Assembly: GCA_026988115.1 (NCBI GenBank)
Contig: JALSLV010000053.1
Coordinates: 1-64,000 of the forward strand
DNA from: Lysobacterales bacterium
GTDB taxonomy: Bacteria > Pseudomonadota > Gammaproteobacteria > Xanthomonadales > Marinicellaceae
Direction: 5' to 3'
Length of the DNA stretch: 64,000 nt
The notes beneath the pieces were generated by a model, which saw only the letters and a program-made list of their open reading frames with translations, ran no database searches and had not been told where the DNA came from. Below, piece by piece: positions 22,140 to 43,725 of this stretch. A program made the translations under genes and the position numbers. Numbering within the stretch: the stretch's first letter is position 1; every line of letters begins with the position of its first letter.

Positions 22140-23468
22140 ATGTCACTCAAAAAAATTCTGTTATTGGCGATATTGTCAATAACCCTCACTGATAAAGCAC
22201 AAGCCCAAAATGCATTGAGCTTAGAAAAAACCATAGCCATCGCACAACATAATGATTTGTGGCTGATAAACAATCGTTACCAACAAAAGGCAACCCAAAG
22301 TTTAAGCGTAGCATCTGGGCAATTGCCTGATCCTAAGGTCTCTTTGGCTTTTTTAAATTTCCCAACCGACACGTTTAATTTTGGGCAAGAACCCATGACG
22401 CAATTAAAAGTCGGTGTTTCACAAATGTTTCCACGGGGCAAAACCTTAGCGTTAAAACGTGAACAGTTAGAACTTAAAAGCGATATATTTCCTTTTCAAC
22501 GACTCAATCGCAGCGAAAAAGTCAAAGTGATTGTCTCAAAGTTATGGTTGGATGCTTATAAAGCCCAAGAAAGCATTGCCTTGATTGAAAAAAATCGTGC
22601 ACTTTTTGAGCAATTATCAGAGGTTGCAGAATCTTCTTACTCTTCTGCTTTAGGTCGAACATCACAACAAGATATCATCCGAGCACAACTTGAATTGACA
22701 CGCTTAGAAGATCGATTAACCATGCTGAGCCAGAAATACGACAGGGCTATTCAAAACCTCTCGGGCTGGATAAATGATTATTATCTTGAAAATTATCAAA
22801 ACCAGCAAGTCAGCAAAGGCATCAATAACAGTAACAACATTAAATTGAACAGCCAATTGCCTGATATTAAATTAAAAAACAAACTCTTAACCTTGGCATT
22901 GGATGATAAAAAAATTTTGCAATTATTTAAAAACCACCCTGCGGTTGTGGCATTGCAACAAAAATTAGCCGTCAGCGACAAAGGTATTGATTTAGCCAAA
23001 CAAAATTACAAACCAGGATGGGGTGTTAATGCCAGTTATGGTTATCGAGGCGAATCACCAAGCGGCATCAATCGAGCTGACTTTCTCACACTTGGTGTCA
23101 CTTTTGATGTGCCTTTATTTACCAAAAACCGCCAAGACAAAAAGCTCCAGGCTGCTGTTGCTCAAAGTGATGCCGTGCAAACTGAAGAGTTATTGCTGTT
23201 GCGGCAAATGTTGGCATCGTACAAGTCACTTGTCAGTCAATTAAAACGTTTGGATGAAAGGCAAAAACTTTACCAAAAAACCTTATTGCCGCAAATGAAC
23301 GAACAAGCCGTGGCTTCACTTTCCGCTTACACTAATGATACTGGTGATTTTGCAGAAGTCGTTCGGTCTCGAATTGCAGAATTAAACGCACAAATAGATG
23401 CATTAAGCATAGATGTTGATAGACAAAAAATTATCGCCCAAATTAACTACTTCTTTAAACAAGTATAA
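22140..23468 (+). CDS. cusC: outer membrane efflux protein, CusC/TolC family
   Basis: This is the outer-membrane channel of a heavy-metal RND pump (442 residues). A signal peptide ends near DKAQAQ. The mature protein has two OEP-type helical repeats: ALSLEKTIAIAQHNDLWLIN with ASGQLPDPKVSLAFLNFP, and GIDLAKQNYKPGWGVNASYG. It is poorly conserved by nature, so the assignment rests on these repeats and on the following cusB and cusA genes. GGAGG precedes the ATG. Confidence 0.9.
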   Translation: MSLKKILLLAILSITLTDKAQAQNALSLEKTIAIAQHNDLWLINNRYQQKATQSLSVASGQLPDPKVSLAFLNFPTDTFNFGQEPMTQLKVGVSQMFPRGKTLALKREQLELKSDIFPFQRLNRSEKVKVIVSKLWLDAYKAQESIALIEKNRALFEQLSEVAESSYSSALGRTSQQDIIRAQLELTRLEDRLTMLSQKYDRAIQNLSGWINDYYLENYQNQQVSKGINNSNNIKLNSQLPDIKLKNKLLTLALDDKKILQLFKNHPAVVALQQKLAVSDKGIDLAKQNYKPGWGVNASYGYRGESPSGINRADFLTLGVTFDVPLFTKNRQDKKLQAAVAQSDAVQTEELLLLRQMLASYKSLVSQLKRLDERQKLYQKTLLPQMNEQAVASLSAYTNDTGDFAEVVRSRIAELNAQIDALSIDVDRQKIIAQINYFFKQV

Positions 23469-23479
23469 GGAAAAAAACA

Positions 23480-24949
23480 ATGAAAAAACCAATAATAACC
23501 CTCATTCTTGGCATTGCCATAGGCTTTGCCGCAATGTTCGTATTCAATAAATTTCAATCACCTGCTGGCTCTGCAGCCACGGGTTCGGAAGAGAGTGCAT
23601 CAAAAGAAAAGAAACCCTTGTACTGGGTCGCCCCAATGGATGCCAATTATCGTCGTGATAAACCAGGTAAATCACCGATGGGCATGGACTTAATTCCTTA
23701 TTACGGTGATGAAGGTGGTGGCAATGATGCAGGGCCTGGCACAATTCGTATAAACCCTGATGTGGTTAATAATCTAGGTGTGAGAACCACAAAATCCATA
23801 AGAAAACCTTTGCATTTTGAAATCAATACTGTCGGTTACGTGGCTTATGATGAGGACAAGCTGGTGCATGTGCATTCACGTATTGAGGGTTGGATTGAAC
23901 AATTGTTTGTTAAAGCGGTAGGTGATAAGGTAGAAAAAGGTCAAGCCCTTTATTCAATATATTCACCGTCATTGGTCAATGCCCAAGAAGAATTATTACT
24001 GGCATTAAAACGCAACAATAAAGTGCTAATTAACGCTGCCAAAGACCGACTCAAGTCTTTACAATTGCCGCAATCCGCCATAAACAAACTGATTAAAACC
24101 CGCAAAGTGCAACAAAATATTACCTTTTTTGCCCCACAAGGTGGATTTGTGGACAAATTGAATATCCGTCAAGGATTTTTTGTTAAACCTGCCATGACTT
24201 TATTGTCAATTGGAGATATTGATAATGTTTGGGTCGAAGCAGAGGTCATTGAATCGCAGATTTCGCATATTTATCCCAATTTGCCCGTGAGTATGCAGGT
24301 TGATGCGATACCGACCCAATCATTTAATGGCAAAGTTGATTATATTTACCCAACTTTAGATGCAAAAAAACGCACCCTTAAAATTCGGATTAAATTTGCC
24401 AACAAAGACCATAGCCTAAAACCTAATATGTTTGCCACGATTCAAATCCACCATAACGAACAACAACCCTTATTGTTAGTCCCAAGTGAAGCAGTCATTC
24501 GTTCGGGTAAAGCCAGTCGTGTGGTTTTGGCCTTGGGTGAAGGGCAATTTAAATCCATTGAAGTCAAAACAGGCAGAAAAAGTGATGATTATATCGAAAT
24601 TTTATCAGGACTTGATGAAGGGGAAGAAGTTGTTACTTCTGCACAGTTCTTGCTGGATTCCGAATCTTCTAAAACTTCTGACTTTAAACGCATGAATCAT
24701 GAAGAAAGAGAAATTTCTTCGGCAACTGTTAATGGCACAATTAACTCTATTATGCAAGACATGAGAATGGTCAATATCAGCCGTGAAGCGATTGAAAAAT
24801 GGGGCAGGGATGCGGCTACTTTGGATTTTTTAGTTGATGATACTGTTGGCATGTATGGTTTAAAAGCTGGCATGAAAGTCATGTTTACTTTTGAAATACG
24901 TGAACAAGGGTTTGTGATAACTAGTATCATGGACATGGGAGAAAAATAA
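23480..24949 (+). CDS. cusB: RND efflux periplasmic adaptor CusB with fused CusF-like domain
   Basis: This membrane-fusion subunit (489 residues) has an N-terminal signal anchor and then a heavy-metal-binding module at about residues 47-78 (YWVAPMDANYRRDKPGKSP, MGMDLIPYY). The HlyD barrel-sandwich and helical hairpin follow (GWIEQLFVKAVGDKVEKGQALYSIYSP). The last 75 residues (TVNGTINSIMQDMRMVNISR, GMKVMFTF) look like a CusF copper/silver chaperone domain fused in cis. The next gene starts inside its stop codon. Confidence 0.93.
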   Translation: MKKPIITLILGIAIGFAAMFVFNKFQSPAGSAATGSEESASKEKKPLYWVAPMDANYRRDKPGKSPMGMDLIPYYGDEGGGNDAGPGTIRINPDVVNNLGVRTTKSIRKPLHFEINTVGYVAYDEDKLVHVHSRIEGWIEQLFVKAVGDKVEKGQALYSIYSPSLVNAQEELLLALKRNNKVLINAAKDRLKSLQLPQSAINKLIKTRKVQQNITFFAPQGGFVDKLNIRQGFFVKPAMTLLSIGDIDNVWVEAEVIESQISHIYPNLPVSMQVDAIPTQSFNGKVDYIYPTLDAKKRTLKIRIKFANKDHSLKPNMFATIQIHHNEQQPLLLVPSEAVIRSGKASRVVLALGEGQFKSIEVKTGRKSDDYIEILSGLDEGEEVVTSAQFLLDSESSKTSDFKRMNHEEREISSATVNGTINSIMQDMRMVNISREAIEKWGRDAATLDFLVDDTVGMYGLKAGMKVMFTFEIREQGFVITSIMDMGEK

Positions 24950-27900
24950 TGATTGCCAATATTATCCGTTGGTCTGTAGGCAACCGATTTTTCGTTCTGC
25001 TTGGGACTTTTATGTTGGTTGGTGTGGGTTTGTTTGCCTTAAAAAATACACCGGTTGACGCCATTCCAGATTTGTCCGATGTGCAAGTTATTATTAAGAC
25101 ATCTTATCCCGGACAAGCCCCACAAGTGGTACAAGATCAAGTCACCTACCCAATGACCACCGCCATGTTATCGGTACCTGGTGCGGTCACGGTTCGGGGT
25201 TATTCGTTTTTTGGTGATTCTTACGTTTATGTAATTTTCGACGAAAAAACCGACTTGTACTGGGCACGTTCGCGTGTTTTAGAGTATCTTTCCCAAGTGG
25301 CTCCAACTTTACCAGCCGCTGCCAGACCGCAATTAGGGCCTGATGCCACAGGTGTGGGTTGGGTTTATATTTATTCATTGATTGATAAAACAGGCAAAAA
25401 CGACCTGTCGCAATTACGCAGTTTACAAGACTGGTTTTTGAAGTATGAACTGCAAACAGTTCCTGGTGTTTCTGAAGTCACTGCTGTTGGTGGTATGGTT
25501 AAGCAATACCAAGTGCAAGTTGATCCTGAAAAATTACGTGCCTACAATATTCCTTTGTCCCATATTGGCATGGCGATTAAAAAAGGCAACCAAGAAATTG
25601 GTGCATCGGTGATAGAAATGGCAGAAGCTGAATACATGGTGCGCACCACAGGTTATCTCAAAAACACCACCGATATAGGCAATATTCCCCTTGGTACAAA
25701 TGTCAATGGCGTGCCATTATTACTCAAAGATGTTGCCGATATTGGCACAGGTCCGCAAATGCGTCGCGGTATTGCCGAACTCAATGGCGAAGGTGAGACA
25801 GTTGGCGGTATTATCGTTATGCGTTTTGGTGAAAATGCCCAAAAAGTCATTGATGGTGTCAAAGAAAAACTCGAACAACTCAAAAAAGGCCTGCCAGAAG
25901 GCGTAGAAGTGGTTACTGTCTATGACCGCAGTGGATTAATTGAAAAAGCAGTCGAAAACCTGTGGCATAAACTACTCGAAGAATTTGCCGTAGTGGCATT
26001 GGTTTGTATGATATTTTTGTTCCATATTCGTTCTTCGCTTGTGGCAATATTCAGCTTGCCAGTTGGTATCTTATCCGCCTTTATGATTATGCATTTTCAA
26101 GGACTCAATGCCAATATTATGTCATTAGGAGGGATTGCCATCGCTATTGGTGCGATGATTGATGGGGCGATTGTGCTGATTGAAAACATGCACAAACACA
26201 TGGAGGCAACCCCGATTACCAAAGAAAATCGCTGGAAAATTGTGGCAGATTCTGCTGCCGAAGTGGGTCCGGCTTTATTTTTTAGTTTGTTGATTATTAC
26301 CGTCAGTTTTATCCCCGTTTTCACTCTCGAAGCCCAAGAAGGACGCATGTTTGCACCGTTGGCATTTACCAAAACCTACGCTATGGCAGCCTCAGCTTTT
26401 TTAGCCATCACTTTAGTGCCCGTACTTATGGGTTATTTTATTCGAGGTAAAGTTTTACCCGAGCATAAAAATCCCATCAATCGCTTTTTAATCGCCATTT
26501 ATCTGCCTGTGTTAAAAACCGTGTTGCGTTTTCCAAAAACCACACTTTTAGCGACATTATTGGTGTTAATTGTGGGCATGTATCCTGTTAATAAAATCGG
26601 TGGTGAATTTATTCCTCCATTGGATGAAGGCGATTTAATGTACATGCCAACCACTTATCCAGGTATTTCTATTGGTAAAGCCCGCGAGTTATTGCAACAA
26701 ACCGATAAACTGATTAAATCAGTTCCAGAAGTCATCACCGTATTTGGCAAAGTCGGGCGAGCAGAAACAGCCACCGATCCCGCACCATTGACCATGATTG
26801 AAACCTTTATACAGCTCAAACCAAAAAGTGAATGGCGAGAAGGCTTGACCAAAGAGGATTTGAAAAAAGAACTCGATGGTTTGGTTAAATTACCCGGAGT
26901 CACCAATGCTTGGGTTGAGCCTATAAAAACCCGTATTGATATGTTAGCCACAGGCATCAAAACCCCAGTTGGGATAAAAATTGCTGGCCCTGAACTCATT
27001 GAAATCGAAAAAATTGGTAAAAGACTGGAGGAAATCCTCAAAAATGTGCCTGGAACTGCTTCGGTTTATTCCGAACGTGTCGCAGGTGGTCGCTATATCA
27101 AGGTCGACATTAAACGTGCAAAAGCCGCACGTTATGGCATGAGTATTGCCGATATTCAACAAGTGGTAGCATCAGCCATTGGTGGCATGAATGTCACGCA
27201 AACGGTCGAGGGTTTGGAGCGTTATCCAGTCAATGTCCGTTATCCACAAGATTACCGCAATTCACCTGAAACATTAGCCCGATTACCCATAGTTAACAAC
27301 ATGGGTCAAACCATATCACTGGGCGATGTCGCCAATATCTTTGTTGAAGATGGACCACCAGGCATAAAATCTGAAAACGCTCGCTTAAACGGTTGGTCAT
27401 TTATTGATATTGATGGTGTGGATGTCGGTACCTATGTGGTGGATGCACAAAAAATCGTTCAAGAGCAACTGAAATTACCTTCGGGTTATTCAATTACATG
27501 GTCAGGACAATACGAATACATGCAACGTGCCAAAGAAAAACTAAGCTATGTTGTACCTTTGACTCTCGCTATTATTGTAATTTTATTATTTATGAATTTT
27601 CGTAATTTCATTGAAGTAGCCATCATTATGGGAACGCTTCCTTTGGCAATGGTTGGAGGTATTTGGTTGATGTATATTCAAGGTTATAACTTCTCAGTCG
27701 CCGTGGGTGTTGGTTTTATTGCTCTTGCTGGTGTGGCAGTAGAAATTGGCGTGATTATGCTGGTTTACCTCAATCAAGCCTATCAAAAAATGCAAAAAGA
27801 TTTCAAAAATAAAACCATCAAATTAGATGATTTACGTCACGCAGTCACCCAAGGTGCTGGTATGCGGGTACGCCCAGTAATGATGACCGCTGCCGCCATT

Positions 27901-28089
27901 ATCGTTGGTCTATTGCCGATTTTATACGGAACAGGCACAGGTTCAGAGGTCATGAGCCGAATTGCTGCCCCTATGGTTGGTGGCATGGTCACAGCGGTTA
28001 TCTTAACCTTATTGGTTGTGCCATCAGTGTTCTTTTTGTGGCGAGCGCAAGCAGTAAAGAAAAATTTAAAATTAATTAAAAGTAAATAA
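24949..28089 (+). CDS. cusA: copper/silver RND efflux pump CusA (HME family)
   Basis: The inner-membrane proton-driven pump subunit has 1046 residues. Heavy-metal RND features include NTPVDAIPDLSDVQVI near the N-terminus, the first TM block AVVALVCMIFLFHIRSSLVAI, GAMIDGAIVLIENMHKH with the proton-relay acidic residues, and the second block PLTLAIIVILLFMNFRNFIE. Together with cusC and cusB it should export Cu(I) or Ag(I) from the periplasm. The CusA assignment over Czc rests on the neighbouring copper genes and the fused CusF domain. Confidence 0.94.
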   Translation: MIANIIRWSVGNRFFVLLGTFMLVGVGLFALKNTPVDAIPDLSDVQVIIKTSYPGQAPQVVQDQVTYPMTTAMLSVPGAVTVRGYSFFGDSYVYVIFDEKTDLYWARSRVLEYLSQVAPTLPAAARPQLGPDATGVGWVYIYSLIDKTGKNDLSQLRSLQDWFLKYELQTVPGVSEVTAVGGMVKQYQVQVDPEKLRAYNIPLSHIGMAIKKGNQEIGASVIEMAEAEYMVRTTGYLKNTTDIGNIPLGTNVNGVPLLLKDVADIGTGPQMRRGIAELNGEGETVGGIIVMRFGENAQKVIDGVKEKLEQLKKGLPEGVEVVTVYDRSGLIEKAVENLWHKLLEEFAVVALVCMIFLFHIRSSLVAIFSLPVGILSAFMIMHFQGLNANIMSLGGIAIAIGAMIDGAIVLIENMHKHMEATPITKENRWKIVADSAAEVGPALFFSLLIITVSFIPVFTLEAQEGRMFAPLAFTKTYAMAASAFLAITLVPVLMGYFIRGKVLPEHKNPINRFLIAIYLPVLKTVLRFPKTTLLATLLVLIVGMYPVNKIGGEFIPPLDEGDLMYMPTTYPGISIGKARELLQQTDKLIKSVPEVITVFGKVGRAETATDPAPLTMIETFIQLKPKSEWREGLTKEDLKKELDGLVKLPGVTNAWVEPIKTRIDMLATGIKTPVGIKIAGPELIEIEKIGKRLEEILKNVPGTASVYSERVAGGRYIKVDIKRAKAARYGMSIADIQQVVASAIGGMNVTQTVEGLERYPVNVRYPQDYRNSPETLARLPIVNNMGQTISLGDVANIFVEDGPPGIKSENARLNGWSFIDIDGVDVGTYVVDAQKIVQEQLKLPSGYSITWSGQYEYMQRAKEKLSYVVPLTLAIIVILLFMNFRNFIEVAIIMGTLPLAMVGGIWLMYIQGYNFSVAVGVGFIALAGVAVEIGVIMLVYLNQAYQKMQKDFKNKTIKLDDLRHAVTQGAGMRVRPVMMTAAAIIVGLLPILYGTGTGSEVMSRIAAPMVGGMVTAVILTLLVVPSVFFLWRAQAVKKNLKLIKSK

Positions 28090-28135
28090 TAAAATAGGTT
28101 ATACGAGTGAAAACATTAACTCAGTATCAAATTAG

Positions 28136-28206
28136 ACTGGATCCCCGCATTCGCGAGGATGACATTTGTGTCTCTTTTGTCATTCCCGTGAAAACGGGAA
28201 TCCAGT
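28136..28206. repeat. palindromic intergenic repeat (ctggattcccg / cgggaatccag type)
   Basis: The 71-base element has outer arms ACTGGATCCCC and GGGAATCCAGT and inner hairpins CCGCATTCGCGAGG-like and TTCCCGTGAAAACGGGAA, with GATGACA and TGTCATTC inside. It resembles the common proteobacterial TGGATTCCCG repeat family. It sits between cusA and the next gene and could act as a terminator or mRNA stabiliser. Confidence 0.7.
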
Positions 28207-28264
28207 TTCAATTAAGCGCTGGATTTCAGAGTTTGCGTAGATAACTAAACAACAGGAGAAAAAA

Positions 28265-28807
28265 ATGAAACACGTAAAATTATTAATCTTAACAACTGTA
28301 GTAGTGATGTTCTCAACAACAGTCAATGCACATGGTGACAAAAACCATGATAAAGAGGCTCATGATAAAGAGGCTATTTTAAAAATTATTGATGGCATTA
28401 AATACGGCTGGGAAAATGGCGATGGAAAACCATTCCGCCAAAACTTTTTAGATTTCAAAGGTGCCAGATACATTGAATCTGGTGGGCAAAATGCGGGACT
28501 TGATAGCTTGGTTACTCACCATGTCGAGCCAGAAAAAGACGCTCTAGAATACTTAAAGCTCGATTTTTCAGATATTGAAGTCAATTTTGAAGGTGATTTT
28601 GCATGGGCTGTAGCCACGACAAGAGTCAAAGGTAAAGTGAGAAATTCAGAACGCACTTTTGACAAATCAGGCTATCAGACATTTTTGTTTCGCAAAATCA
28701 ACGACCAATGGAAAGTGGTACATACCCATTCTTCATCGCGTGATTATAAACCAAAAAAGCAGCAAGTAAAATCCGAAAAGCACGATTCAAAAGATCACAA
28801 GCATTAA
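28265..28807 (+). CDS. periplasmic NTF2/SnoaL-like protein with His-rich ends
   Basis: The 180-residue protein has a signal peptide ([15 protein letters not shown]). His-rich segments lie at both ends ([15 protein letters not shown] and KHDSKDHKH). The core ([46 protein letters not shown]) fits a DUF4440/SnoaL cone fold. The termini suggest copper binding, and the gene lies 12 bases before copA. The catalytic role is unknown. Confidence 0.82.
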
Positions 28808-28819
28808 GAGTATAGGACA

Positions 28820-30667
28820 ATGAAAGAGATTATTAACAGCCCTTTAAATCGCCGCAAGTTTGTTACTGGCGTTGCCGCTGGTGGACTACTTTATGGACTT
28901 GGTGGTTTTTCAAACAGTTTTGCAAACACTCAAGCCCAAGCAAAATTTCACCACCATCCAACTTTAAAAGGCAAGCAGTTCAACCTTGATATAGGCTATA
29001 TGCCCGTTAATTTTACTGGTAAACAACGTTTGGCAACTGCCGTTAACGGTTCAGTTCCTTGTCCGACATTGTACTGGCAAGAAGGGGATGAGGTAACACT
29101 GAGGGTGAGTAATAAACTCAAACACTCTAGCTCAATTCATTGGCATGGCATTATTTTAGATACGCAAATGGATGGCGTGCCTGGCTTGAGTTTTGATGGA
29201 ATTGATGCTGGGAAAACATTTGTCTATAAATTTAAAGTCAATCAAAGTGGAACTTATTGGTACCACAGCCATTCAGGTTTTCAAGAACAAACTGGTATGT
29301 ATGGGGCGATAGTCATTTATCCCAAAGAACCCGACCCAGTAAGCTATGACCGTGAACACGTGATTGTTTTATCGGATTGGTCGGATGAAAAACCTGAGAA
29401 AATTTATAGAAAGCTCAAAAAAATGAGTGACTATTATAATTTCCGTGAAAGAACCAGTTTAGACTTGTTTGAAGAAATCAAATCCAAAGGCGTCAAACAG
29501 ACCTACAAAGACCGCAAAATGTGGAATAAAATGCGCATGAGTGACCGTGATTTATCTGATGTTACGGGTTATACATACACTTACCTCATGAATGGCATAA
29601 CGCCTGATGAAGGCTGGAAGGGTCAATTTAAGAAAGGCGAAAAAGTTCGCCTTAGAATAATTAACGCCTCAGCCATGACGTTATTTGATATAAGAATTCC
29701 AGGCTTAAAAATGAAAGTTGTGGCAGCCGATGGGCAAAATATCGAGCCTGTTACGGTTGATGAATTTCGCATGGGTGTGGCAGAAACCTATGATGTTATA
29801 ATCGAGCCAAAAGAAGACTCTGCTTATACCATTTTTGCTCAAAGTATTGATAGAACAGGCTTTACTCGTGGAATATTAGCACCCAGTGCAGAACTCAATG
29901 CACAGGTTCCAGCAATGGATCCCCCTCCTTTACTAGGCATGCGAGACATGGGAATGGCGGGCATGATGAATATGAAAGGGATGGATATGAAAAATATGAG
30001 CATGAAAAGCATGGATAGGAAAGGCATGGATATGAACCACAGCAAAATGAAAGGCATGGATCATGCAAAAATGTCAGGTATGCAAGTCAGTCATGATGAG
30101 ATGAAAACATCAGGAAAAGCGGGTTTTGGTAGCCAAACAAAACCAACCCATGTCAAAACAGAATTCGGCCCACACGTAGATATGCGTGCCATGAGTCCAC
30201 AAAGTGGATTAAATGACCCTGGCATAGGCTTGCGGAATAATATGAAATTATATGGTCGAAAAGTATTAACTTATGCCGATATTTGTGGCTTAGCTGAAAC
30301 TGAAGACAAGCGCGATCCAAGTCGCGAAATTGAACTGCACTTAACCGGAAATATGAGTCGATATATGTGGTCGATTAATGGCATTAAATTTGCCGATGCC
30401 GATCCCATACAACTTAAATACGGTGAACGGGTACGAATTACTATTTTCAATGACACCATGATGACTCACCCGATACACTTGCATGGTATGTGGAGTGAAT
30501 TAGAAACCAATGAGCCCAAATACATTCCTAAAAAACACACCATTAATGTACAAACAGGTTCAAAAATTAGTTATTTGGTAACAGCCGATGCCAGAGGTCG
30601 TTGGGCTTACCATTGTCACTTGTTGTACCACATGCCTGGTATGTTCCGAGAAGTGCGTGTCAGTTGA
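28820..30667 (+). CDS. copA: copper resistance multicopper oxidase CopA (Tat-exported)
   Basis: This periplasmic oxidase of CopA/PcoA type has 615 residues. A Tat signal is present (NRRKFVTG at residues 10-17). All four copper-ligand motifs are intact: SSIHWHG, YWYHSHSGF, THPIHLHG and YHCHLLYHMPGM. A Met-rich insert at about residues 373-425 (MKGMDMKNMSM pattern) probably binds Cu(I). It should oxidise Cu(I) in the periplasm. copB follows directly, as in the plasmid copAB and pcoAB systems. Confidence 0.95.
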   Translation: MKEIINSPLNRRKFVTGVAAGGLLYGLGGFSNSFANTQAQAKFHHHPTLKGKQFNLDIGYMPVNFTGKQRLATAVNGSVPCPTLYWQEGDEVTLRVSNKLKHSSSIHWHGIILDTQMDGVPGLSFDGIDAGKTFVYKFKVNQSGTYWYHSHSGFQEQTGMYGAIVIYPKEPDPVSYDREHVIVLSDWSDEKPEKIYRKLKKMSDYYNFRERTSLDLFEEIKSKGVKQTYKDRKMWNKMRMSDRDLSDVTGYTYTYLMNGITPDEGWKGQFKKGEKVRLRIINASAMTLFDIRIPGLKMKVVAADGQNIEPVTVDEFRMGVAETYDVIIEPKEDSAYTIFAQSIDRTGFTRGILAPSAELNAQVPAMDPPPLLGMRDMGMAGMMNMKGMDMKNMSMKSMDRKGMDMNHSKMKGMDHAKMSGMQVSHDEMKTSGKAGFGSQTKPTHVKTEFGPHVDMRAMSPQSGLNDPGIGLRNNMKLYGRKVLTYADICGLAETEDKRDPSREIELHLTGNMSRYMWSINGIKFADADPIQLKYGERVRITIFNDTMMTHPIHLHGMWSELETNEPKYIPKKHTINVQTGSKISYLVTADARGRWAYHCHLLYHMPGMFREVRVS

Positions 30668-30675
30668 GGAGGATA

Positions 30676-31389
30676 ATGATGAAAACAACAACTAAATTAA
30701 TCATTATTTCATTGATTTTGCAAATATCAACAAGTTTTGCAGGAGCCAAAGACGACCCTTTTATCAGTAAATTTATGTTTGATCAATTGGAAAGCCGAAA
30801 TGCCGATGGCAGCAATCCTTTTGTTTTGTCCGGGCAGTTTTGGTTTGGTCACGATTTAAAAAAATTGTGGATAAAAACCGAATTTGAACGCACAGGCGGT
30901 GAAACCGAAGAGGCTGAAATTCAAGCACTGTTTAGCAAAGCCATTGCTCCTTATTGGGATATGCAAATGGGTATACGTTCAGATTTAGGTATTGACGCTT
31001 TAACCAACAGAAATTGGGCAGTGCTTGGCTTGCAAGGTTTAGCACCTTATTTTTTCGAAATAGATACAGCCTTTTTTATTGGAGAAAATGGCAGAACCGC
31101 CCTAAGATTTGAAGCGGAGTATGAGCTGTTATTTACCCAAAAATTAATTTTAACACCAGAAATCGAGGTTAACTTTTATGGCAAAGATGACCCACAAACT
31201 CGTGTTGGCTCAGGCTTGTCGGATAGTGAAATAGGGCTAAGACTGCGTTATGAATTTAGACGTAATTTTGCACCTTATATAGGCTTGGTCAAGACAAATA
31301 CATTTGGTCAAAGTGCAGAATATTTACGCACAGAAGGTCAAGCGGTTAGCGATTCACAATTTGTAATCGGAATCAGATCATGGTTCTAA
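30676..31389 (+). CDS. copB: copper resistance protein CopB (outer membrane)
   Basis: A signal peptide ([15 protein letters not shown]) precedes a beta-barrel of the CopB/PcoB family. Visible motifs are [56 protein letters not shown] and the C-terminal FVIGIRSWF. The Met/His-rich N-terminal region of longer CopB proteins is absent. Two adjacent ATGs (30676 and 30679) follow GAGGAGG at the end of copA, and the frame remains open back into copA. CopB may hold or pass copper at the outer membrane. Confidence 0.93.
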
Positions 31390-31417
31390 ACACAACAATA
31401 AACAGGAGAAAAACACA

Positions 31418-33859
31418 ATGAAAGATCCAGTTTGCGGCATGAATGTCGATAGGCAAGCACAATACAGCAGTCAATTTGATGGCGTTGAATACTATTTTTG
31501 CAGTGAAAAATGTTTCAGTAAATTTACCGCAAGCCCTCAAGCCTTTTTAGAAAAGTCGAAAAGCGATTGTTGTGGTCATTGCGATACTAGCCCCAAGTCT
31601 AATGCTATAACCGAAGAGCTTATAGCAGTTGATGCCATCTACACCTGTCCGATGCACCCAGAAATCGAACAAGTGGGACAAGGTTCGTGCCCTAAATGTG
31701 GTATGGCGTTAGAACCCAAAGATATTCCACTGGCAACTACTGAAACAAAATACACCTGTCCGATGCATCCTGAAATCATTAAGGATGAACCAGGTTCTTG
31801 CCCAATTTGCGGCATGGCTCTAGAATCCATGACGGTTGATGTTGAAGAAGATAATCACGAACTTAACGACATGAGCAAACGCTTTAAAATCAGTACGATT
31901 TTAGCTATTCCCGTATTTGTTTTAGCCATGATTGCAGACTTGGTACCGTCGTGGTTGCCAGATGGCTTATCCATGAAAACGGTTCAATGGATAGAATTTG
32001 TACTGGCAACTCCTGTGGTTTTGTGGGGTGGTTGGCCATTTTTTGTGAAAGCCATTGCTTCCTTCAAAACCATGAATCTCAATATGTTTACTTTGATTGG
32101 TATTGGCATAACTGCCGCTTGGGTTTATAGCATGGTAGCCATGTTGTTTCCGCATTTATTTCCACAAGACATGTTACATGAAGGTGTTATTCCCGTCTAT
32201 TTTGAAGCGGCAGCGGTTATCACTGCCTTGGTTTTGCTAGGGCAAGTGTTAGAACTACGTGCCCGCTCACAAACCAATGAAGCTATAAAATTATTATTGG
32301 GATTAGCACCCAATACAGCACGAATTATTAAAGACAATGGCGAGGAAGTCGATATTCCCATGGAGCATGTCAAGGTCGGTGATAAATTACGCATCCGTCC
32401 AGGTGAAAAAGTCCCTGTTGATGGTGTGGTAATAGAAGGCTCAAGCTTAATTGATGAATCCATGGTTACTGGTGAACCCGTTCCCGTTACTAAAAAACCA
32501 GGTGATAAAGTCATTGGAGCAACAGTCAATGGCACCAGTTCTTTGGTGATGCAAGCCCAAAAAATTGGTTCAGATACCTTGCTTTCTCAAATTGTGCAAA
32601 TGGTCGCTCAAGCCCAACGCTCACGTGCTCCTATTCAAAAAATGGCAGATACAGTCTCAGGCTTCTTTGTTCCTATAGTTGTGTTGTGTGCTATTTTGGC
32701 TTTTGCCGCATGGTATTTCTGGGGTCCTGAACCACAATTAGCCTATGCCGTAGTGAGTTTTGTATCGGTATTGATAATCGCTTGTCCTTGTGCACTGGGC
32801 TTAGCAACACCCATCTCTATCATGGTAGGAACTGGACGGGGAGCCTTAGAAGGCGTGTTAATTAAAAATGCTGAATCGTTAGAAATTTTAGAAAAAGTGG
32901 ACACGCTTGTTGTTGATAAAACAGGAACATTAACCGAAGGCAAGCCCAAACTCACAGAAATCATAGCCGATGGTGGTTTTGATAGTGAACAAATTTTGGG
33001 CTGGGTGGCATCAATAGAAAAGTACAGTGAGCATCCTTTGGCTGAGGCTATTGTCGAAGGCGCAAAAGAACAGAATATTGCCACCACCGATGTGGATGAT
33101 TTTCAATCAGTCACAGGTAAAGGTGTTACCGCCCAGATTGATGGCAAGAAAATGGCTTTAGGCAATGCCAAAATGATGAGACAAGCAGATACAGAAATAA
33201 GTGATTTCTTTGCTCAAGCTGATAAGTTACGAGAAGAAGGTCAAACCGTTATGTTATTTTCGGTTGATGGTAAAGCTGCTGGTCTTATTTGTGTCGCAGA
33301 CCCAATCAAACAATCGACACCAGATGCCATTGCACAACTGCATAAGCAAGGATTAACCGTGGTCATGCTCACAGGCGATAACGCCAAAACTGCACAATCT
33401 GTTGCCAGCCAATTGAATATTGATCGCGTCGAAGCCGATGTGATGCCCGATCAAAAAGCAGCCATTGTTAAGCAATTACAAGCCGATGGTAAAATTGTTG
33501 CCATGGCAGGTGATGGTATCAATGATGCACCTGCTTTGGCTCAATCCCAAGTTGGTATAGCCATGGGAACAGGCACAGATGTAGCAATGGAAAGTGCTGG
33601 CGTAACCTTGGTCAAAGGTGATTTGCGAGGCATTGTCAAAGCCATTGGTCTAAGTCGGGCGACCATGAAAAACATCAGGCAAAATCTATTTTTTGCCTTT
33701 ATTTACAATGCCGTTGGCGTGCCCATCGCCGCTGGTGTTCTTTACCCATTTTTTGGTGTCTTACTTTCACCCATGATAGCCGCTGCTGCCATGAGCTTCA
33801 GTTCTGTCTCGGTGATAGTCAATGCACTTCGATTAAAAAAAGCGAAAATTACATCGTGA
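31418..33859 (+). CDS. copper-translocating P-type ATPase with YHS and two HMBD modules
   Basis: This P1B-ATPase has 813 residues. The N-terminus carries a YHS domain ([17 protein letters not shown]) and two heavy-metal-binding modules (YTCPMHPEI with [10 protein letters not shown] and [10 protein letters not shown]) in place of the usual HMA domains. The core has the membrane CPC site in [13 protein letters not shown], the phosphorylated [11 protein letters not shown], the HP motif SEHPLAEAI and [12 protein letters not shown]. It should pump Cu(I) from the cytoplasm into the periplasm, upstream of CopA and CusCBA. SilP, CopA or ActP names could apply. Confidence 0.95.
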
Positions 33860-33902: not shown

Positions 33903-34400
33903 ATGAATAACTTTAAAACATTATTAATAACAACGGCAGTTGCCTTAACATTTAACGCCAATGCACATGATCCAAGTATGCACGCCAAAAAAGCTGCCAA
34001 ACTTGATTGTTCAGGCTATAAAAAAATGGTAGCCAGTGGCACGAAGATGGATATGTCCGATCCTGTCATGCTGGCTATGATGAAAAAATGCAAAAACAAA
34101 ACAGCCGAACATGATAACGCCGATGGTCATCATGATACCGAAAAAGCAGGCGGCAAATGCGATGACATGAGCGATGGTCAGCATGACAAAAAAGAAATGA
34201 AGTGCGGTGATATGACTTCCGAAGCCACCGAAAAAATGAGCAAAGGTAAGTGCGGCGATATGAGCGACGGACACCACGACAAAAAATCTGATAAGAAGTG
34301 CGGTGATATGAAAGCCTCTGGTGATGATAAAAAAGGTGAGATGAAATGCGGTAACATGGATTCTAGTGCTAAAGGCTCTGATTCAAAATGTGGTAATTAA
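33903..34400 (+). CDS. periplasmic Cys/Met/His repeat protein, putative copper buffer
   Basis: The protein has 165 residues. A signal peptide (ITTAVALTFNANA) leads to a short ordered part with DCSGYKKMVASGTKMDMSDPV-like sequence. A low-complexity tail follows with six KC motifs (KCDDM, KCGDM three times, KCGNM, KCGN) separated by His-rich SDGHHDKK-like spacers. This spacing of Cys, Met and His looks like a metallothionein-like metal sponge. I do not recognise it as a named family. Confidence 0.78.
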   Translation: MNNFKTLLITTAVALTFNANAHDPSMHAKKAAKLDCSGYKKMVASGTKMDMSDPVMLAMMKKCKNKTAEHDNADGHHDTEKAGGKCDDMSDGQHDKKEMKCGDMTSEATEKMSKGKCGDMSDGHHDKKSDKKCGDMKASGDDKKGEMKCGNMDSSAKGSDSKCGN

Positions 34401-34471: not shown

Positions 34472-35005
34472 ATGAAAACAATTAAAACACTAATACTTTT
34501 AGGCATTCTTGGTATTATCGTCGCAACAGGAGTGATTTATTCGGGTATTTATCCCATCGGTGCAGATGTACCACACAACAAATTCACTTATTGGATTTTA
34601 GAACAAGCCAGAGAACGCTCAATAAGTCGCGCATCTGCTGACATATCGGTTCCAGATTTAAGCTCTGCTGACATGCTATTATCAGGTGGGGCAGATTACA
34701 ATGATATGTGTTCGTCTTGTCATTTAAAACCAGGACAAAACGAAAGTGACATGACCATTGGGCTGTATCCAAAACCACCCAACCTATCCTTAGCAGAACA
34801 TGAGGAGGAACACGGTGGTGACGATGATGAAACAACAGAGGCACAAAAAATGTTTTGGACCATCAAACATGGCATCAAAGCATCGGGTATGCCTGCTTGG
34901 GGAAAAACCCATGATGATGACCGTATTTGGGCAATGGTGGCATTTATCAAAAAAATGCCTGAATTAACCGAAGATCAGTACCAAATATTAACCAGTAGAG
35001 AATAA
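34472..35005 (+). CDS. membrane-anchored monohaem cytochrome c
   Basis: The 177-residue protein has an N-terminal hydrophobic anchor (LILLGILGIIVATGVIY). One haem-binding motif CSSCH lies in DYNDMCSSCHLKPG and the likely axial Met in KASGMPAWGK. The helical C-terminus (DRIWAMVAFIKKMP) is typical of class I cytochromes c. An acidic, His-containing loop (HEEEHGGDDDE) may bind metal. It lies in the copper island after the metal-buffer gene, so a redox role with copper is plausible but unproven. Confidence 0.88.
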   Translation: MKTIKTLILLGILGIIVATGVIYSGIYPIGADVPHNKFTYWILEQARERSISRASADISVPDLSSADMLLSGGADYNDMCSSCHLKPGQNESDMTIGLYPKPPNLSLAEHEEEHGGDDDETTEAQKMFWTIKHGIKASGMPAWGKTHDDDRIWAMVAFIKKMPELTEDQYQILTSRE

Positions 35006-36138: not shown

Positions 36139-37107
36139 ATGAGAACATTTTCTTTTTTAGGTTCCAATACAGCCGCTTTGACTGTTAGTATGGATGGTTC
36201 AACAACAATGTCGGATAACAATACGTTAACTACTTGGTATTTTGGAAATGGATTTAATGACGATCGACTTGTTCCAAGTCCGGTGATTGAATGCATTGAA
36301 GGGCAACAAGTTAATGTCACACTTACCTCTATGCGAGCACATTCTATTCATTTTCATGGATTGGACGTTGATCAAGCCAATGATGGAGTAGGGAGCACTT
36401 CAGGCTATGTTTCGCAATCTCCAACAGGAGGTAATTTGGGACGTGTCGATGGTTATACGCGTTTTCCCTCTCCTCATGTTTATACATTTACCGCACCTCA
36501 TGCGGGTACGTATATGTACCATTGCCACATAGATACTGTTTTGCATATTGAACAAGGCATGGTAGGAACTGTTATTGTACGACCTCCTAGTGGTTCAACT
36601 ACTCAAGCGTGGACTAGTGGACCAAGTTTTGATCGAGAACACGTTTGGCATTTACATACTTTTGACAGCTCGTGGCATGGTGAAACAATAAGTGGAGTGG
36701 TTACCAATCGTTATCGTCCAGATTACTTTATGCTTAATGGCAAAGATGGTGTTAATGCCATAGATGACACAACTTGTGCCATTACCGCTGACTATGGCAC
36801 TAAAGTGCTTATTCGAGCTAATAATGTTGGTTATCAACCCGCACTAATAAACCTAGGTGGCATTACTTTCCAAGTCATTGCCAGTGATGGTCGTCCATTG
36901 CCAACACCATTAAATGTGACAGAATTGTTGGTTACCGCTGGTGAACGCTATGATATTTTATTGACAATACCTGGGGCTTTTGATGGATTTGCTACCATTT
37001 CTTATAAAGACATACGTAATCGGATTACATTAGGAACAGTACAAACTCGGATCAAGGACACATCGAATGATTTTGTCTTTGCAAGTGGTTTTGAGGCAGG
37101 AGAATAA
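36139..37107 (+). CDS. split two-domain multicopper oxidase, subunit A (type 1 site in domain 1)
   Basis: The protein has 322 residues in two cupredoxin domains. Domain 1 is intact: HSIHFHG gives His68 (type 1), His71 and His73, and YHCHIDTVLHIEQGM gives His128, Cys129, His130, His136 and axial Met141. Domain 2 has lost its ligands, with the HxH position reading PALINLGG. It therefore carries a complete type 1 copper site but only half of the eight trinuclear histidines. There is no signal peptide, and an in-frame stop (36130-36132) blocks a longer start. The C-terminus FVFASGFEAGE resembles an FxxGFE tail. Subunit B starts two bases after its stop. Confidence 0.85.
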   Translation: MRTFSFLGSNTAALTVSMDGSTTMSDNNTLTTWYFGNGFNDDRLVPSPVIECIEGQQVNVTLTSMRAHSIHFHGLDVDQANDGVGSTSGYVSQSPTGGNLGRVDGYTRFPSPHVYTFTAPHAGTYMYHCHIDTVLHIEQGMVGTVIVRPPSGSTTQAWTSGPSFDREHVWHLHTFDSSWHGETISGVVTNRYRPDYFMLNGKDGVNAIDDTTCAITADYGTKVLIRANNVGYQPALINLGGITFQVIASDGRPLPTPLNVTELLVTAGERYDILLTIPGAFDGFATISYKDIRNRITLGTVQTRIKDTSNDFVFASGFEAGE

Positions 37108-37109
37108 GC

Positions 37110-38102
37110 ATGAAAACTCGTAAAACAAACAGTAAAAAACAAAACTTTTCTTCCAGTCGTAGAAATTTACTCAAAGCCAGTGCCACAGGTGCTGCGTTAT
37201 TTTCACTCAGTGGCTTGACACTTTTTTCTCCTCGCGCTAGAGCAGCTACCATAACTTATAATTTTGTTGCAGAAAGCTATACAAAAACCATGGTTGATGG
37301 TGTTGATATAACTGCATGGCGTTTTAGAGATTTAAATGGTGCAAATTCTGGACCAGGAGAATTATCTGCTGGAATAGTGGCTCAAGAGGGTGATAATATT
37401 GTGATAAATCTAACCAATAATCTCAATACATCCATTCAGTTTGATATTCCTGGGCTTGTTGAAAATCAAGGCTTGTTAAATTCTGGGGCTTCTGCCACAA
37501 TTAATTTTGCAGTGCCACAAGCAGGCAGTTATTTATTTCGCGATAATAAAGTTTCGGAATTTGGACAAGCCATGGGTTTAACAGGGCCAATGATTGTTAT
37601 GCCAGGAGATGGTTCACAAACCTTATACACAGGCGGTCCTGCATTTGATCGGCAATACACTTTAGTCCTTAATGATTTTGATGACCGACTCAATGCAGCC
37701 ACAGCCAGTGGACAAAGTTATAACCTTGATAATTTTGAGCCGAATTATTATTTTGTTAATGGTTTATCCTACCCAAATACCGCAAGTGATGCCGATACAA
37801 AGGTTGCAATGAGTTTGGGTGAAGACATTGCTATTCGGTTTGTTAATGCAGGTTTATTAACCCATTCAATGCATTTTCATGGGTATCATGTTCGAGTCAT
37901 TAGTCGAAACCGAGTTCCTGTAACAGATATTATTGATAAAGATACGGTTGTGGTTAATCCCAGCGAGTGTGTGGATATTATTTTACCCGTTAATCAATTA
38001 GGTAAATTTCCATTACACACCCATTATATTCCTGCAGTAACGGCTAATGGTGTTTATGTTAATCCCTATGGTGGTTCCCTGTTAATAGTGGAGGCCACTT
38101 AA
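37110..38102 (+). CDS. split two-domain multicopper oxidase, subunit B (Tat signal, domain 2 ligands)
   Basis: The 330-residue protein has a Tat signal (SRRNLLK at residues 16-22, then a hydrophobic stretch ending ARA). Domain 1 has lost its ligands (IQFDIPG where HxHG should be, FRDNKVSEFGQAMG where HCH should be). Domain 2 keeps HSMHFHGYH (His255 and His257) and LHTH (His303 and His305), with Thr in place of the type 1 Cys. These four histidines complement the four of subunit A to give eight. It is likely exported with, and assembled onto, the preceding subunit. Confidence 0.85.
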   Translation: MKTRKTNSKKQNFSSSRRNLLKASATGAALFSLSGLTLFSPRARAATITYNFVAESYTKTMVDGVDITAWRFRDLNGANSGPGELSAGIVAQEGDNIVINLTNNLNTSIQFDIPGLVENQGLLNSGASATINFAVPQAGSYLFRDNKVSEFGQAMGLTGPMIVMPGDGSQTLYTGGPAFDRQYTLVLNDFDDRLNAATASGQSYNLDNFEPNYYFVNGLSYPNTASDADTKVAMSLGEDIAIRFVNAGLLTHSMHFHGYHVRVISRNRVPVTDIIDKDTVVVNPSECVDIILPVNQLGKFPLHTHYIPAVTANGVYVNPYGGSLLIVEAT

Positions 38103-38162: not shown

Positions 38163-38774
38163 TTATTGACTAAAGTTATCTCGAATGTAACTTAACACAT
38201 TCTTAATGTCTTGTGTCGTTAATGCCGAATTTCCTCCTTTTGCTGGCATTGCCATTGGTGAGTCTGGTGTTTGAAAACCATTGGTAATATTTTTCACCAG
38301 CTCATCATCACTTTTAGAAAGCGGAGAGTTTTTACTAGGAAAATTCGGAGCACCAGGAACCATTCCTTCACCATTGGCGCCATGGCAAGCAATACAGGTT
38401 TGGGAATAAATTTCTTTACCTGACAAACCTAAACTTACACTGTTTTTTCCAATTTTAACTTTTTGAACTTCAGAAGTTTGTGAAGACTTATTATTGGATT
38501 GTTGTAAAAAAGTAATAATGTCTCGAGTTTGTTGTCCAGTTAATCCTGCACGCATGCGCATATGAAAAACGGTGGTTATCCATTGGTCATCACGCAGGTC
38601 TTTGGGGTCACGCATGTTGTGACATCGCGAGCAGTTATCTGCCCATGATTGAGCGCCTTTGGCAAAATCACCAGGTTTTGGATAAGTTTCAGCATTGATA
38701 GGAGACAACATTATTGTCATTAATATGAGAGTAATGGCTGTAAATAAGTTTCTATTGTTAATTAAATATTTCAT
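38163..38774 (-). CDS. periplasmic dihaem cytochrome c
   Basis: The 203-residue protein has a signal peptide (ITLILMTIMLSPINA) and two haem motifs, CSRCH in NCSRCHNMRD and CIACH in TCIACHGANGEG. The second domain has the axial-Met type region PMAMPAKGG. The C-terminal domain is a classic class I cytochrome c. It is convergent with the split oxidase and divided from it by a terminator, and probably shares a transcript with the porin gene. It is a candidate electron partner. Confidence 0.88.
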   Translation of the reverse strand: MKYLINNRNLFTAITLILMTIMLSPINAETYPKPGDFAKGAQSWADNCSRCHNMRDPKDLRDDQWITTVFHMRMRAGLTGQQTRDIITFLQQSNNKSSQTSEVQKVKIGKNSVSLGLSGKEIYSQTCIACHGANGEGMVPGAPNFPSKNSPLSKSDDELVKNITNGFQTPDSPMAMPAKGGNSALTTQDIKNVLSYIRDNFSQ

Positions 38775-40971: not shown

Positions 40972-43725
40972 ATGAAAAATTCACTTGTTCAGATTTTACT
41001 CTCGATTGTAGCCTTATGTGCAGTTCAAGCTGTTCCTGCAGCGCCTTTAGATGATTTTATTATCACGGTAAAAACCGATAATAACGGTGTATCAGCCAAT
41101 AATCAATTTACTATTCCAACCATAGGAATAGGGTATAAATACTCAGTTGACTGTAATAATGATAGCATTAATGAAATAAATAATACCAATGGAAATTATA
41201 CCTGTAGCTATTCCACTGCTGGCACTTATACCATTCGGATTAAGCATAATAACTTAACAGGAGAAGGTTTTCCGCGTATTTATTTTAATTTTTCAGGGGA
41301 TAGACTAAAAATACTTTCCCTCGACCAATGGGGCACAGGGCATTGGACTTCATTTGCAAATGCTTTTAATGGATGCAGCAATATGTTGACTTTAGCAACT
41401 GATAGCCCAAACCTCGTTTCTGTTGCTTCAATGAGTCTAAGGAATATGTTTAGAAATGCCAATGCAGCTAACCCCGATACCAGTGGCTGGGATACTTCGC
41501 AAGTAACGGATATGAGTGGTATGTTTGCAGATGCCACAGCTGTAAACCCCGATACCAGTGGCTGGGATACTTCGCAAGTAATGGATATGAGTTCTATGTT
41601 TACATTTGCCAGAGCTGCAAACCCCGATACCAGCGGCTGGGATACTTCGAAAGTAAAGGATATGTTTGCTATGTTTCAAGCTGCTACTGTTGCAAACCCC
41701 GATACCAGTGGCTGGGATACTTCGCAAGTGACGGATATGCGTGCTATGTTTGATGGAGCCACTGCTGCAAACCCTGATACCAGTGGTTGGAATACTTCGC
41801 AAGTAATGAATATGAGTCGTATGTTTCGTATTGCCACTGCTGCAAACCCCGATACCAGTGGCTGGGATACTTCTCAAGTGACGAATATGAGTGCTATGTT
41901 TGTTAGAGCAACCTCTGCGAATCCTAATACCAGTAATTGGGATACTTCGCAAGTGACTGATATGAGTGATATGTTTTTATATGCTACATTAGCCAATCCA
42001 GATACAGGTTCATGGAATACATCCAAAGTGACTAGTATGTTTGTTATGTTTGCAGGAGCAACTTTAGCAAACCCTGATACAAGTAGTTGGAATACTACGA
42101 ATGTGACTAATATGGGAGGTATGTTCAGAAACTCTGTTCATGCTAATCCCAATACAAGCAGTTGGATTACTACAAATGTAACTTACTTTCATAGTATGTT
42201 TTTAGGAGCAATCTCTGCTAACCCTGATACATCTAATTGGGATATTGTCAATGTCTTAAGTATGGACCTTATGTTTGATTTAGTTACTTTGCCAACGGTT
42301 GATTATGATGCTTTATTAATTGATTTTAATAACAAGCCACACCAAGCCACTGTGTCTTTTTCTGGTGGGTTTAGTCTTTATTGCAGTACCAGTGCGCAAA
42401 TGGCGCGTGCAGAATTGATTGGTTCTGATGGTTGGGTTATTAGCGATGGAGGGTTGTGCGCACCTGTTGTGGCTGATTTAGTAGCGGCAAGTGATTCAGG
42501 ACTTTCAACAACGGATGATATAACCAATGATAATACTCCAGAGTTGGCAGTTGGTTGTAGCTTGGCAGGCAATGAAATACAATTGTACAGTGATAATGCC
42601 GTAATTGCGACGCATACCTGTGCGGGAGTAGGGTTTGAGAATAGCACCTCAACGGTGGTTTTGTCCGATGGTGTTCATCAAGTCAGCTACCAACAAAGAA
42701 ATATAGGCGGACAATTCAGCGCCCTAGCGGTGGCTTTACCCATTACTATTGATACAATGCTTGCGACTCCTGTTTGCACCACTAGCCCTGCCAATGCCCA
42801 ACAAGGCACAGCGGTGACAACAACATGCACTGCAGTTGAACAAGGGGCTTTACTCACCATTGACCATATGAATTGTTTGCCAATCTCTGCACCCGCATCA
42901 GGGGTTGTAAACTGCAATGGAGTCGTTGGCTTAAATGCGGGTGAAGTGGTGCAATCAAATGACACGGTGATGACAGTTGATGTCGCAGGTAATGTCAATA
43001 ATAACGCCACTACCGGTTTGCTCATTAACTTTTTACCACAAGCTTTGGATGATGTTGTTACACTAAACGAAGATGCAGCGATGCAAACAATTGCAGTATT
43101 GAGTAATGATTCTGATATTGAGGGCGATAATTTTGTTATTGTATCGGTTAACCAACCAAGCAATGGAATGGTTGTTAATAACACAACTAACTTAAGTTAT
43201 ATACCCAATGCAGATTATTGTAACAATGGTATAACAACCGATGACTTTAGCTATGAAATTACTGGAGGAGCAGTGGCAACAGTTTCGGTGACCGTCAACT
43301 GTGTCAATGATGCGCCAAGTTTTGTGCCGACTTGCAGTAATATAGATGCCAGTGCTTATGCAGGAGTGAACAATAATAATGCACAATTTTATAACTTTTC
43401 ACTGTTGACTTTGGGACCAATAAATGAAAACAGTCAAAACATTCTTGGTTTTACCCTTAACTTAACTGATCCACAAGGGGTGATTTCTCAGCTTAGTATT
43501 GATGGTGATGGGTATTTATCAGTTGGATACAGTCTGCAAACAGGGGTGGCAACATTAGGAATTACTATCCAAGATGATGGTGGCATCGCTTTGGGTGGAA
43601 ATGATACATCACTTGAGCAAGAGTTTTTCTTGAGCTATTCCGATTTAAGCAACAGTACCGATAGAATTCTAAAAAGTAGTTTTGAATTTAGCTGTGAGTC
43701 AGTTTCCTTGGATATAGTGCAGTAA
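40972..43725 (+). CDS. BspA-type (DUF285) repeat surface protein
   Basis: The 917-residue secreted protein has a signal peptide ending AVPAAP. Residues 167-441 hold eleven exact-length repeats of 25 residues with the pattern NPDTSGWDTSQVTDMSxMF, the bacterial surface-protein 26-residue-type leucine-rich repeat (DUF285). A partly degenerate unit precedes them. The C-terminal half has Ig/cadherin-like modules, including VTLNEDAAMQTIAVLSNDSD. The end carries RILKSSFEFSC, similar to an FxxGFE sorting-type tail. A role in adhesion is suggested by family only. Confidence 0.88.
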   Translation: MKNSLVQILLSIVALCAVQAVPAAPLDDFIITVKTDNNGVSANNQFTIPTIGIGYKYSVDCNNDSINEINNTNGNYTCSYSTAGTYTIRIKHNNLTGEGFPRIYFNFSGDRLKILSLDQWGTGHWTSFANAFNGCSNMLTLATDSPNLVSVASMSLRNMFRNANAANPDTSGWDTSQVTDMSGMFADATAVNPDTSGWDTSQVMDMSSMFTFARAANPDTSGWDTSKVKDMFAMFQAATVANPDTSGWDTSQVTDMRAMFDGATAANPDTSGWNTSQVMNMSRMFRIATAANPDTSGWDTSQVTNMSAMFVRATSANPNTSNWDTSQVTDMSDMFLYATLANPDTGSWNTSKVTSMFVMFAGATLANPDTSSWNTTNVTNMGGMFRNSVHANPNTSSWITTNVTYFHSMFLGAISANPDTSNWDIVNVLSMDLMFDLVTLPTVDYDALLIDFNNKPHQATVSFSGGFSLYCSTSAQMARAELIGSDGWVISDGGLCAPVVADLVAASDSGLSTTDDITNDNTPELAVGCSLAGNEIQLYSDNAVIATHTCAGVGFENSTSTVVLSDGVHQVSYQQRNIGGQFSALAVALPITIDTMLATPVCTTSPANAQQGTAVTTTCTAVEQGALLTIDHMNCLPISAPASGVVNCNGVVGLNAGEVVQSNDTVMTVDVAGNVNNNATTGLLINFLPQALDDVVTLNEDAAMQTIAVLSNDSDIEGDNFVIVSVNQPSNGMVVNNTTNLSYIPNADYCNNGITTDDFSYEITGGAVATVSVTVNCVNDAPSFVPTCSNIDASAYAGVNNNNAQFYNFSLLTLGPINENSQNILGFTLNLTDPQGVISQLSIDGDGYLSVGYSLQTGVATLGITIQDDGGIALGGNDTSLEQEFFLSYSDLSNSTDRILKSSFEFSCESVSLDIVQ
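41470..42294 (+). repeat. eleven tandem 75-bp coding repeats
   Basis: Eleven consecutive 75-base units begin with AACCCCGATACCAGTGGCTG or close variants. The first six or so are nearly identical at DNA level, and the later units diverge. They encode the 25-residue repeats of the BspA-type protein. Recent local amplification at the 5' side is likely. Confidence 0.9.

Follow-up and report, generated by a model that had tools for sequence, protein, structure and literature searches.

Can two adjacent genes, the products of which each lack the copper ligands that the other one retains, together encode a single multicopper oxidase (MCO)? The question is raised by a gene pair in a 64,000-nucleotide stretch of DNA (here called the window) from a bacterium of the Lysobacterales. 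A sequence-only reading had proposed two neighboring genes for proteins of two cupredoxin domains each, and both are present as open reading frames on the forward strand: gene A at 36139-37107 (322 aa) and gene B at 37110-38102 (330 aa), separated by 2 bp. A matches the Pfam families Cu-oxidase_3, Cu-oxidase_2 and Cu-oxidase (PF07732, PF07731 and PF00394) above their curated cut-offs, and B matches PF07731 and PF07732. Two-domain MCOs of “type C” are by definition those in which, of the two cupredoxin domains, the first alone has a type 1 copper site (PMC13151041); in two-domain MCOs the trinuclear cluster lies between protomers and takes its ligands from domain 1 of the one and domain 2 of its neighbor (PMC13151041), and the enzymes are described as homotrimers (PMC13151041, PMC3192119).

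All ligand residues named in the following for A and B were verified codon by codon. Domain 1 of A carries the motif HSIHFH (36340-36357, forward strand like all features of the pair), which aligns with PHTIHWH of the type C structure 3G5W, is kept in 105 of 105 A proteins, and contains His68 of the type 1 site as well as the trinuclear ligands His71 and His73; the second motif, HCHIDTVLHIEQGM (36520-36561), invariant in the A alignment, contributes His128 and His130 to the trinuclear site and Cys129, His136 and Met141 to the type 1 site. In the alignment with 3G5W, the type 1 ligands and all four trinuclear histidines of domain 1 are present in A, whereas the four histidines of domain 2 are all missing; there, PALINLGG (36838-36861) stands at the position of the HxH motif of type C enzymes, and SYKD (37000-37011) lies in the region of the second HxH motif, its exact register being alignment-dependent. 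B is the reverse: the same alignment leaves no ligand in domain 1, where IQFDIPG (37434-37454) and FRDNKVSEFGQAMG (37536-37577), the latter without HCH and without the type 1 Cys, replace the motifs, and retains all four histidines of domain 2, namely His255 and His257 in HFHGYH (37872-37889), which also contains the invariant His260, and His303 and His305 in HTH (38016-38024). The full domain 1 and ligand-free domain 2 of A, and the ligand-free domain 1 and four domain 2 histidines of B, had been read from the letters before, and codons and alignment agree with this. A Thr in place of the type 1 Cys in domain 2 of B had been pointed out as well; Thr304 is indeed present, but it is no loss in itself, as 3G5W reads HDH at this place. 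Because no type C enzyme has a type 1 Cys in its second domain, domain 2 of B is complete and undamaged for a type C protein, and the loss that matters in B is the one in domain 1. Neither chain contains the eight trinuclear histidines together with the type 1 Cys and two His; A and B jointly have the full set.

By sequence and predicted fold, A and B are two-domain MCO paralogs nearest to the homotrimeric type C enzymes 3G5W and 2ZWN. The best PDB match of A is 3G5W, both by sequence and by its AlphaFold2 model (Z 27.0, rmsd 2.7 Å over 259 residues); for B, the best sequence matches are 2ZWN and 3G5W, and its model superimposes on 3G5W with Z 27.3 and an rmsd of 2.3 Å over 258 residues. The models were made from single chains, A and B separately (mean pLDDT 85 and 83), and each chain forms a complete two-domain fold. 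The feature that defines type C, a sole type 1 site in domain 1, is also found in the pair, with the site present in domain 1 of A and absent from domain 2 of B as in 3G5W. Matches to the profile of the copper-resistance MCO CopA (TIGR01480; 41.4 bits for A, 45.1 for B) are below the cut-off of 478.95. Profile searches of the PDB returned no solved heteromeric relative closer than 3G5W and 2ZWN; PDB entry 9CCK, considered as a heteromer on account of its two chain lengths, is by its title one MCO from Nitrosopumilus maritimus, and its chains match at the same positions.

It is proposed that A and B are the subunits of an obligately heteromeric two-domain MCO, split once by opposite loss, with its O2-reducing site at the interface between domain 1 of A and domain 2 of B, and exported as one; the probability of this reading is put at about 0.86. 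That one active enzyme needs A plus B, the halves of the trinuclear site being divided between paralogs, was the core of the sequence-only reading and is supported by the adjacency of the genes and the reciprocal ligand losses. Going by the ligands, a homotrimer of A alone or of B alone could not supply eight histidines; only domain 1 of A set against domain 2 of B could, and as the ligands are divided between two paralogs at most one kind of interface would be live. It had been argued that a ring of three cannot alternate A and B, which is correct; nevertheless, A2B, AB2, an AB dimer and A3B3 would each still give at least one live interface. A three-membered ring would have one live site and two dead interfaces out of three, and a simple AB dimer or A3B3 would be equally possible. 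That electrons arrive at the type 1 copper, cross the Cys-His bridge and reduce O2 at the cluster is established chemistry of the superfamily. Substrate electrons would accordingly be taken up by the type 1 copper in domain 1 of A (His68, Cys129, His136, Met141) and pass via His128 and His130, which flank Cys129, to a trinuclear cluster held by His71, His73, His128 and His130 of A and His255, His257, His303 and His305 of B; at the interface, this shared cluster would reduce O2 to water. We infer the physical complex of A and B, its loading with copper, the reduction of O2 and the hitchhiking export described below.

The pair is widespread. A scan of approximately 85,000 species genomes with A returned at least 80 loci, nearly all with a B-like gene beside A. 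Matches to the A family are present in 14 of 229 gammaproteobacterial genomes, with B adjacent wherever the contig permits, and the split pair in 32 of the 150 genomes searched from the order of Brumimicrobium; it also occurs in Bacteroidota and Sulfurimonas, and the plasmids searched yielded two pairs, both of Indioceanicola profundi (B on one of these plasmids is annotated by NCBI as a hypothetical protein). After deduplication there are 96 adjacent pairs across at least six phyla; both genes are found in Pseudomonadota, Aquificota, Campylobacterota, Planctomycetota, Krumholzibacteriota and Bacteroidota, although many of the genomes are draft metagenome bins and single placements may be wrong. 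Split pairs of a divergent sub-family (L094-L101, L187, L188) occur in Gammaproteobacteria and, twice, on two plasmids of I. profundi; their motifs are of the type HTIHHHGIEP in A and HxHxNH...HxHxEMxQT in B.

Ligand retention was counted in an alignment of 105 A, 102 B, seven canonical type C and five unsplit proteins, which are related sequences, so that the counts are not independent events. All seven domain 1 ligand columns tested are intact in 105 of 105 A, and the HxH of domain 2 is intact in none; conversely, the four domain 2 histidines are intact in 101 of 102 B (the sole exception is a frameshifted B in a draft genome), and the type 1 Cys is present in 0 of 102. Because the same pattern recurs in these homologs, that of the window is not due to chance. 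The dead positions hold stray single or paired histidines at most, and regained ligands were found in none of the 105 A or 102 B. The four trinuclear histidines are among the few invariant residues of A and of B (13 in B), with pairwise identities down to approximately 20-30%. Mean identity among A proteins is 50% in domain 1 versus 33% in domain 2 (domain 1 higher in 99% of pairs), and among B proteins 39% in domain 2 versus 24% in domain 1 (domain 2 higher in 97%); in both subunits the live domain evolves more slowly than the dead one.

A and B are adjacent and on the same strand at 96 of 96 paired loci, with a median gap of -4 bp and stop and start often overlapping; the order is B-A at 92 and A-B at four. 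Tandem arrays occur as A-B-A (L007) and B-A-A (G095), and the A-B order of the window could derive from an array like these. A natural fusion of A and B was not seen among the loci examined. In the genus of the window, the genes occur in five of 11 genomes, the same ones for A as for B, and genomes that are 99-100% complete are found both with and without the pair. Constant co-occurrence with reciprocal losses, by which the sequence-only reading was to stand or fall, thus holds with one apparent exception: in L065 (5700-7056), A is intact, but B appears to have been removed cleanly from between flanks that are otherwise colinear with those of L063 and L075. This draft genome was not found to contain B elsewhere, and the lone A may reflect a true loss of B or else a gap in the assembly. 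Other candidates for lone genes were dismissed. The B and A genes of G095 are on separate contigs, the ends of which overlap in sequence (the ends of L190 and L123); at L092 the B is present but frameshifted; and G309 and G008 are cases of contig ends, the contig of G008, which belongs to the genus of the window, beginning where only B remains visible.

Conserved neighbors that could give a clue to the substrate were not found in general; a histidine kinase, a tRNA methyltransferase, molybdenum cofactor synthesis genes and others vary by locus, and it is therefore the A/B pair that is the conserved unit. About ten loci of Flavobacteriales, and none elsewhere, have just upstream of B a gene for a protein of approximately 227 aa with a type IX sorting tail (e.g., L025 3038-3721).

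The export signals of the two subunits are one-sided. B of the window begins with a Tat signal peptide, SRRNLLKASATG...SPRARA (37110-37244, cleavage site approximate), which matches TIGR01409 (TAT_signal_seq) with 17.9 bits against a cut-off of 16.7 and shares the twin-arginine motif and hydrophobic stretch with its orthologs. A has no hydrophobic N-terminal stretch, and as an in-frame stop lies only two sense codons before its ATG, a longer N-terminus with a signal peptide is not possible. With a Tat signal on B and none on A, folding and assembly of the two proteins most probably take place in the cytoplasm, after which they would pass the inner membrane as one. Outside Bacteroidota, 25 of 27 pairs have the twin arginine and hydrophobic stretch in B and no hydrophobic stretch in A; in the remaining two (L020 and L102), A and B alike carry Sec-type signals. 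In Bacteroidota, hydrophobic N-terminal signals are present in 69 of 70 A and 69 of 70 B, and it is the type IX sorting tail (PF18962) that distinguishes the partners, being above threshold in 24 of 33 A versus 0 of 33 B; its Asn-Pro and Gly are invariant in all 33 A, and B ends approximately 22 residues past the last His motif. For two unrelated export systems, therefore, only one partner bears the address, with the roles swapped (Tat on B, type IX tail on A), and co-export of a preformed complex would explain the one-sided labels in both. One-sided labeling is not universal, since in G095 the two tandem A copies have Tat-like signals of their own together with a lipobox-like Cys, the first copy also having a long Thr/Ser-rich linker. 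Hitchhiking through Tat with mutual dependence of the partners is known for PaoABC (PMC4273604).

As each chain forms a complete two-domain fold, A has a complete type 1 site, and L065 has A without B, the two proteins might also act separately, A as a blue-copper electron carrier or storage protein and B as a copper-binding or structural protein, without any trinuclear site. This is improbable. A lone cupredoxin has no reason to keep trinuclear histidines, so their retention in nearly every A and B argues for a shared site; strict adjacency and the joint presence or absence in the genus of the window point the same way, and the one-sided export labels would strand one partner unless A and B bind each other.

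A heteromer with a chemistry other than the reduction of O2 to water, for instance with a copper site at the interface like that of nitrite reductases, is less probable still. The fold is common to copper nitrite reductases (Z 24-26), and both proteins give weak matches to TIGR02376 (40.2 bits for A, 28.4 for B), far below its cut-off of 296.3. Copper nitrite reductases, however, have one type 2 copper with three histidines at the interface, whereas the pair keeps all eight histidines of the trinuclear MCO site, and the solved structures closest to it, in sequence as in fold, are those of type C enzymes that reduce O2. SufI/FtsP is a dead homolog of MCOs. Given this precedent and that of factor V (PMC3600357), the pair could be imagined as a decaying or pseudogenised laccase retained as an inactive structural heteromer, but this is hardly credible, as the losses in A and B are opposite and not shared, the ligands that survive have not changed over a very long divergence, and the live domains are the slower-evolving ones.

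How the heteromeric enzyme favored here may have arisen can be approached from the phylogeny. With canonical type C enzymes as the root, A forms one clade of the tree and B another, and both stand when all four ligand motifs are cut out (support 99/91 and 100/99, and 100% of bootstrap trees). The distance matrices of A and B correlate with r = 0.90 (best permutation 0.14), and the copies of Aquificota and Campylobacterota nest at matching positions in the A half and the B half of the tree; such mirrored trees are also expected from shared species history. Unsplit relatives carrying all ligands exist (L028/L161, L162-L165 and L189, the last from Deinococcus ficus); the Trueperaceae protein L161 groups with A and B, and the remaining unsplit proteins of Deinococcota fall outside. 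The simplest history to be read from these sequences would start from a homomeric type C enzyme with a trinuclear site spanning protomers, the gene for which was duplicated once; opposite losses followed, of the domain 2 ligands in A and of the domain 1 ligands in B, and then joint inheritance and joint transfer.

Within the genus of the window, genes for copper efflux and resistance (CusCBA-like, CopA-like MCO, CopB, metal P-type ATPase) are clustered ahead of the pair. In the window itself, this island lies directly upstream (22140-33859) and contains efflux genes like those for CusC, CusB (with a CusF domain) and CusA, as well as CopB, a P-type ATPase with YHS and HMBD domains, and a separate CopA-like three-domain MCO (28820-30667). 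A role of the pair as Cu(I) oxidase or in copper tolerance is plausible for this genus; it is suggested only by these neighbors, which differ elsewhere. Further genes nearby encode an exported-looking 165-aa protein of repeated Cys-Gly-Asp-Met / His-Asp-Lys-Lys units without a Pfam match (33903-34400), possibly metal-binding, and c-type cytochromes on either side of the pair (34472-35005 and 38163-38774), the first of which is retained beside A in near relatives (L004-L006). At 40972-43725 follows a 917-aa protein consisting mostly of repeated units like NPDTSGWDTSQVTDMSGMF, and then of other repeat-like domains.

It seems quite likely that such pairs constitute a widespread, ancient and overlooked class of obligately heteromeric MCOs, in which the interface site was divided once between paralogs and assembly became tied to co-export, through Tat via B in several phyla and through the type IX system via A in Bacteroidota. 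If so, the class would have been overlooked because genome surveys discard chains that do not have all four copper motifs. An earlier description of heteromeric or split two-domain MCOs was not found in the literature, of which open-licence papers were covered, so that this is weak evidence of novelty. The pair would be a long-lived natural example of how complementary losses make an obligate heteromer out of a homomer, one that can still be compared with living unsplit relatives. It also allows an export question to be tested, namely whether a protein that bears no more than a Sec signal can pass through the type IX system with the help of its partner.

Among known systems, the type C enzymes 3G5W (BCO of Nitrosomonas europaea) and 2ZWN (a metagenomic laccase) resemble the pair in having two cupredoxin domains, a type 1 site in the first and trinuclear histidines in both; they are homomers with all ligands in one chain, whereas in the pair these are divided between paralogs. 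The unsplit Deinococcota MCOs (L028/L161-L165, L189) likewise have all ligands of both domains in a single chain, and also a C-terminal plastocyanin-like domain, in which they differ from the pair; L161 has the HGLDVDQANDGVP loop in common with A and scores far above canonical type C enzymes with the profiles of both A and B. The Tat hitchhiker complexes HybOC hydrogenase and PaoABC share with the pair a Tat signal on one subunit and a partner without (PMC4273604), but these enzymes are unrelated to it, and for A hitchhiking is deduced from the signals. The six-domain MCOs, that is, ceruloplasmin, hephaestin and bacterial six-domain proteins, are like the pair if it forms a three-membered ring, with at most one trinuclear center and the other equivalent interfaces dead (PMC3600357); there, however, the ring is one covalent chain, while the pair consists of separate subunits and its type 1 site is placed differently.
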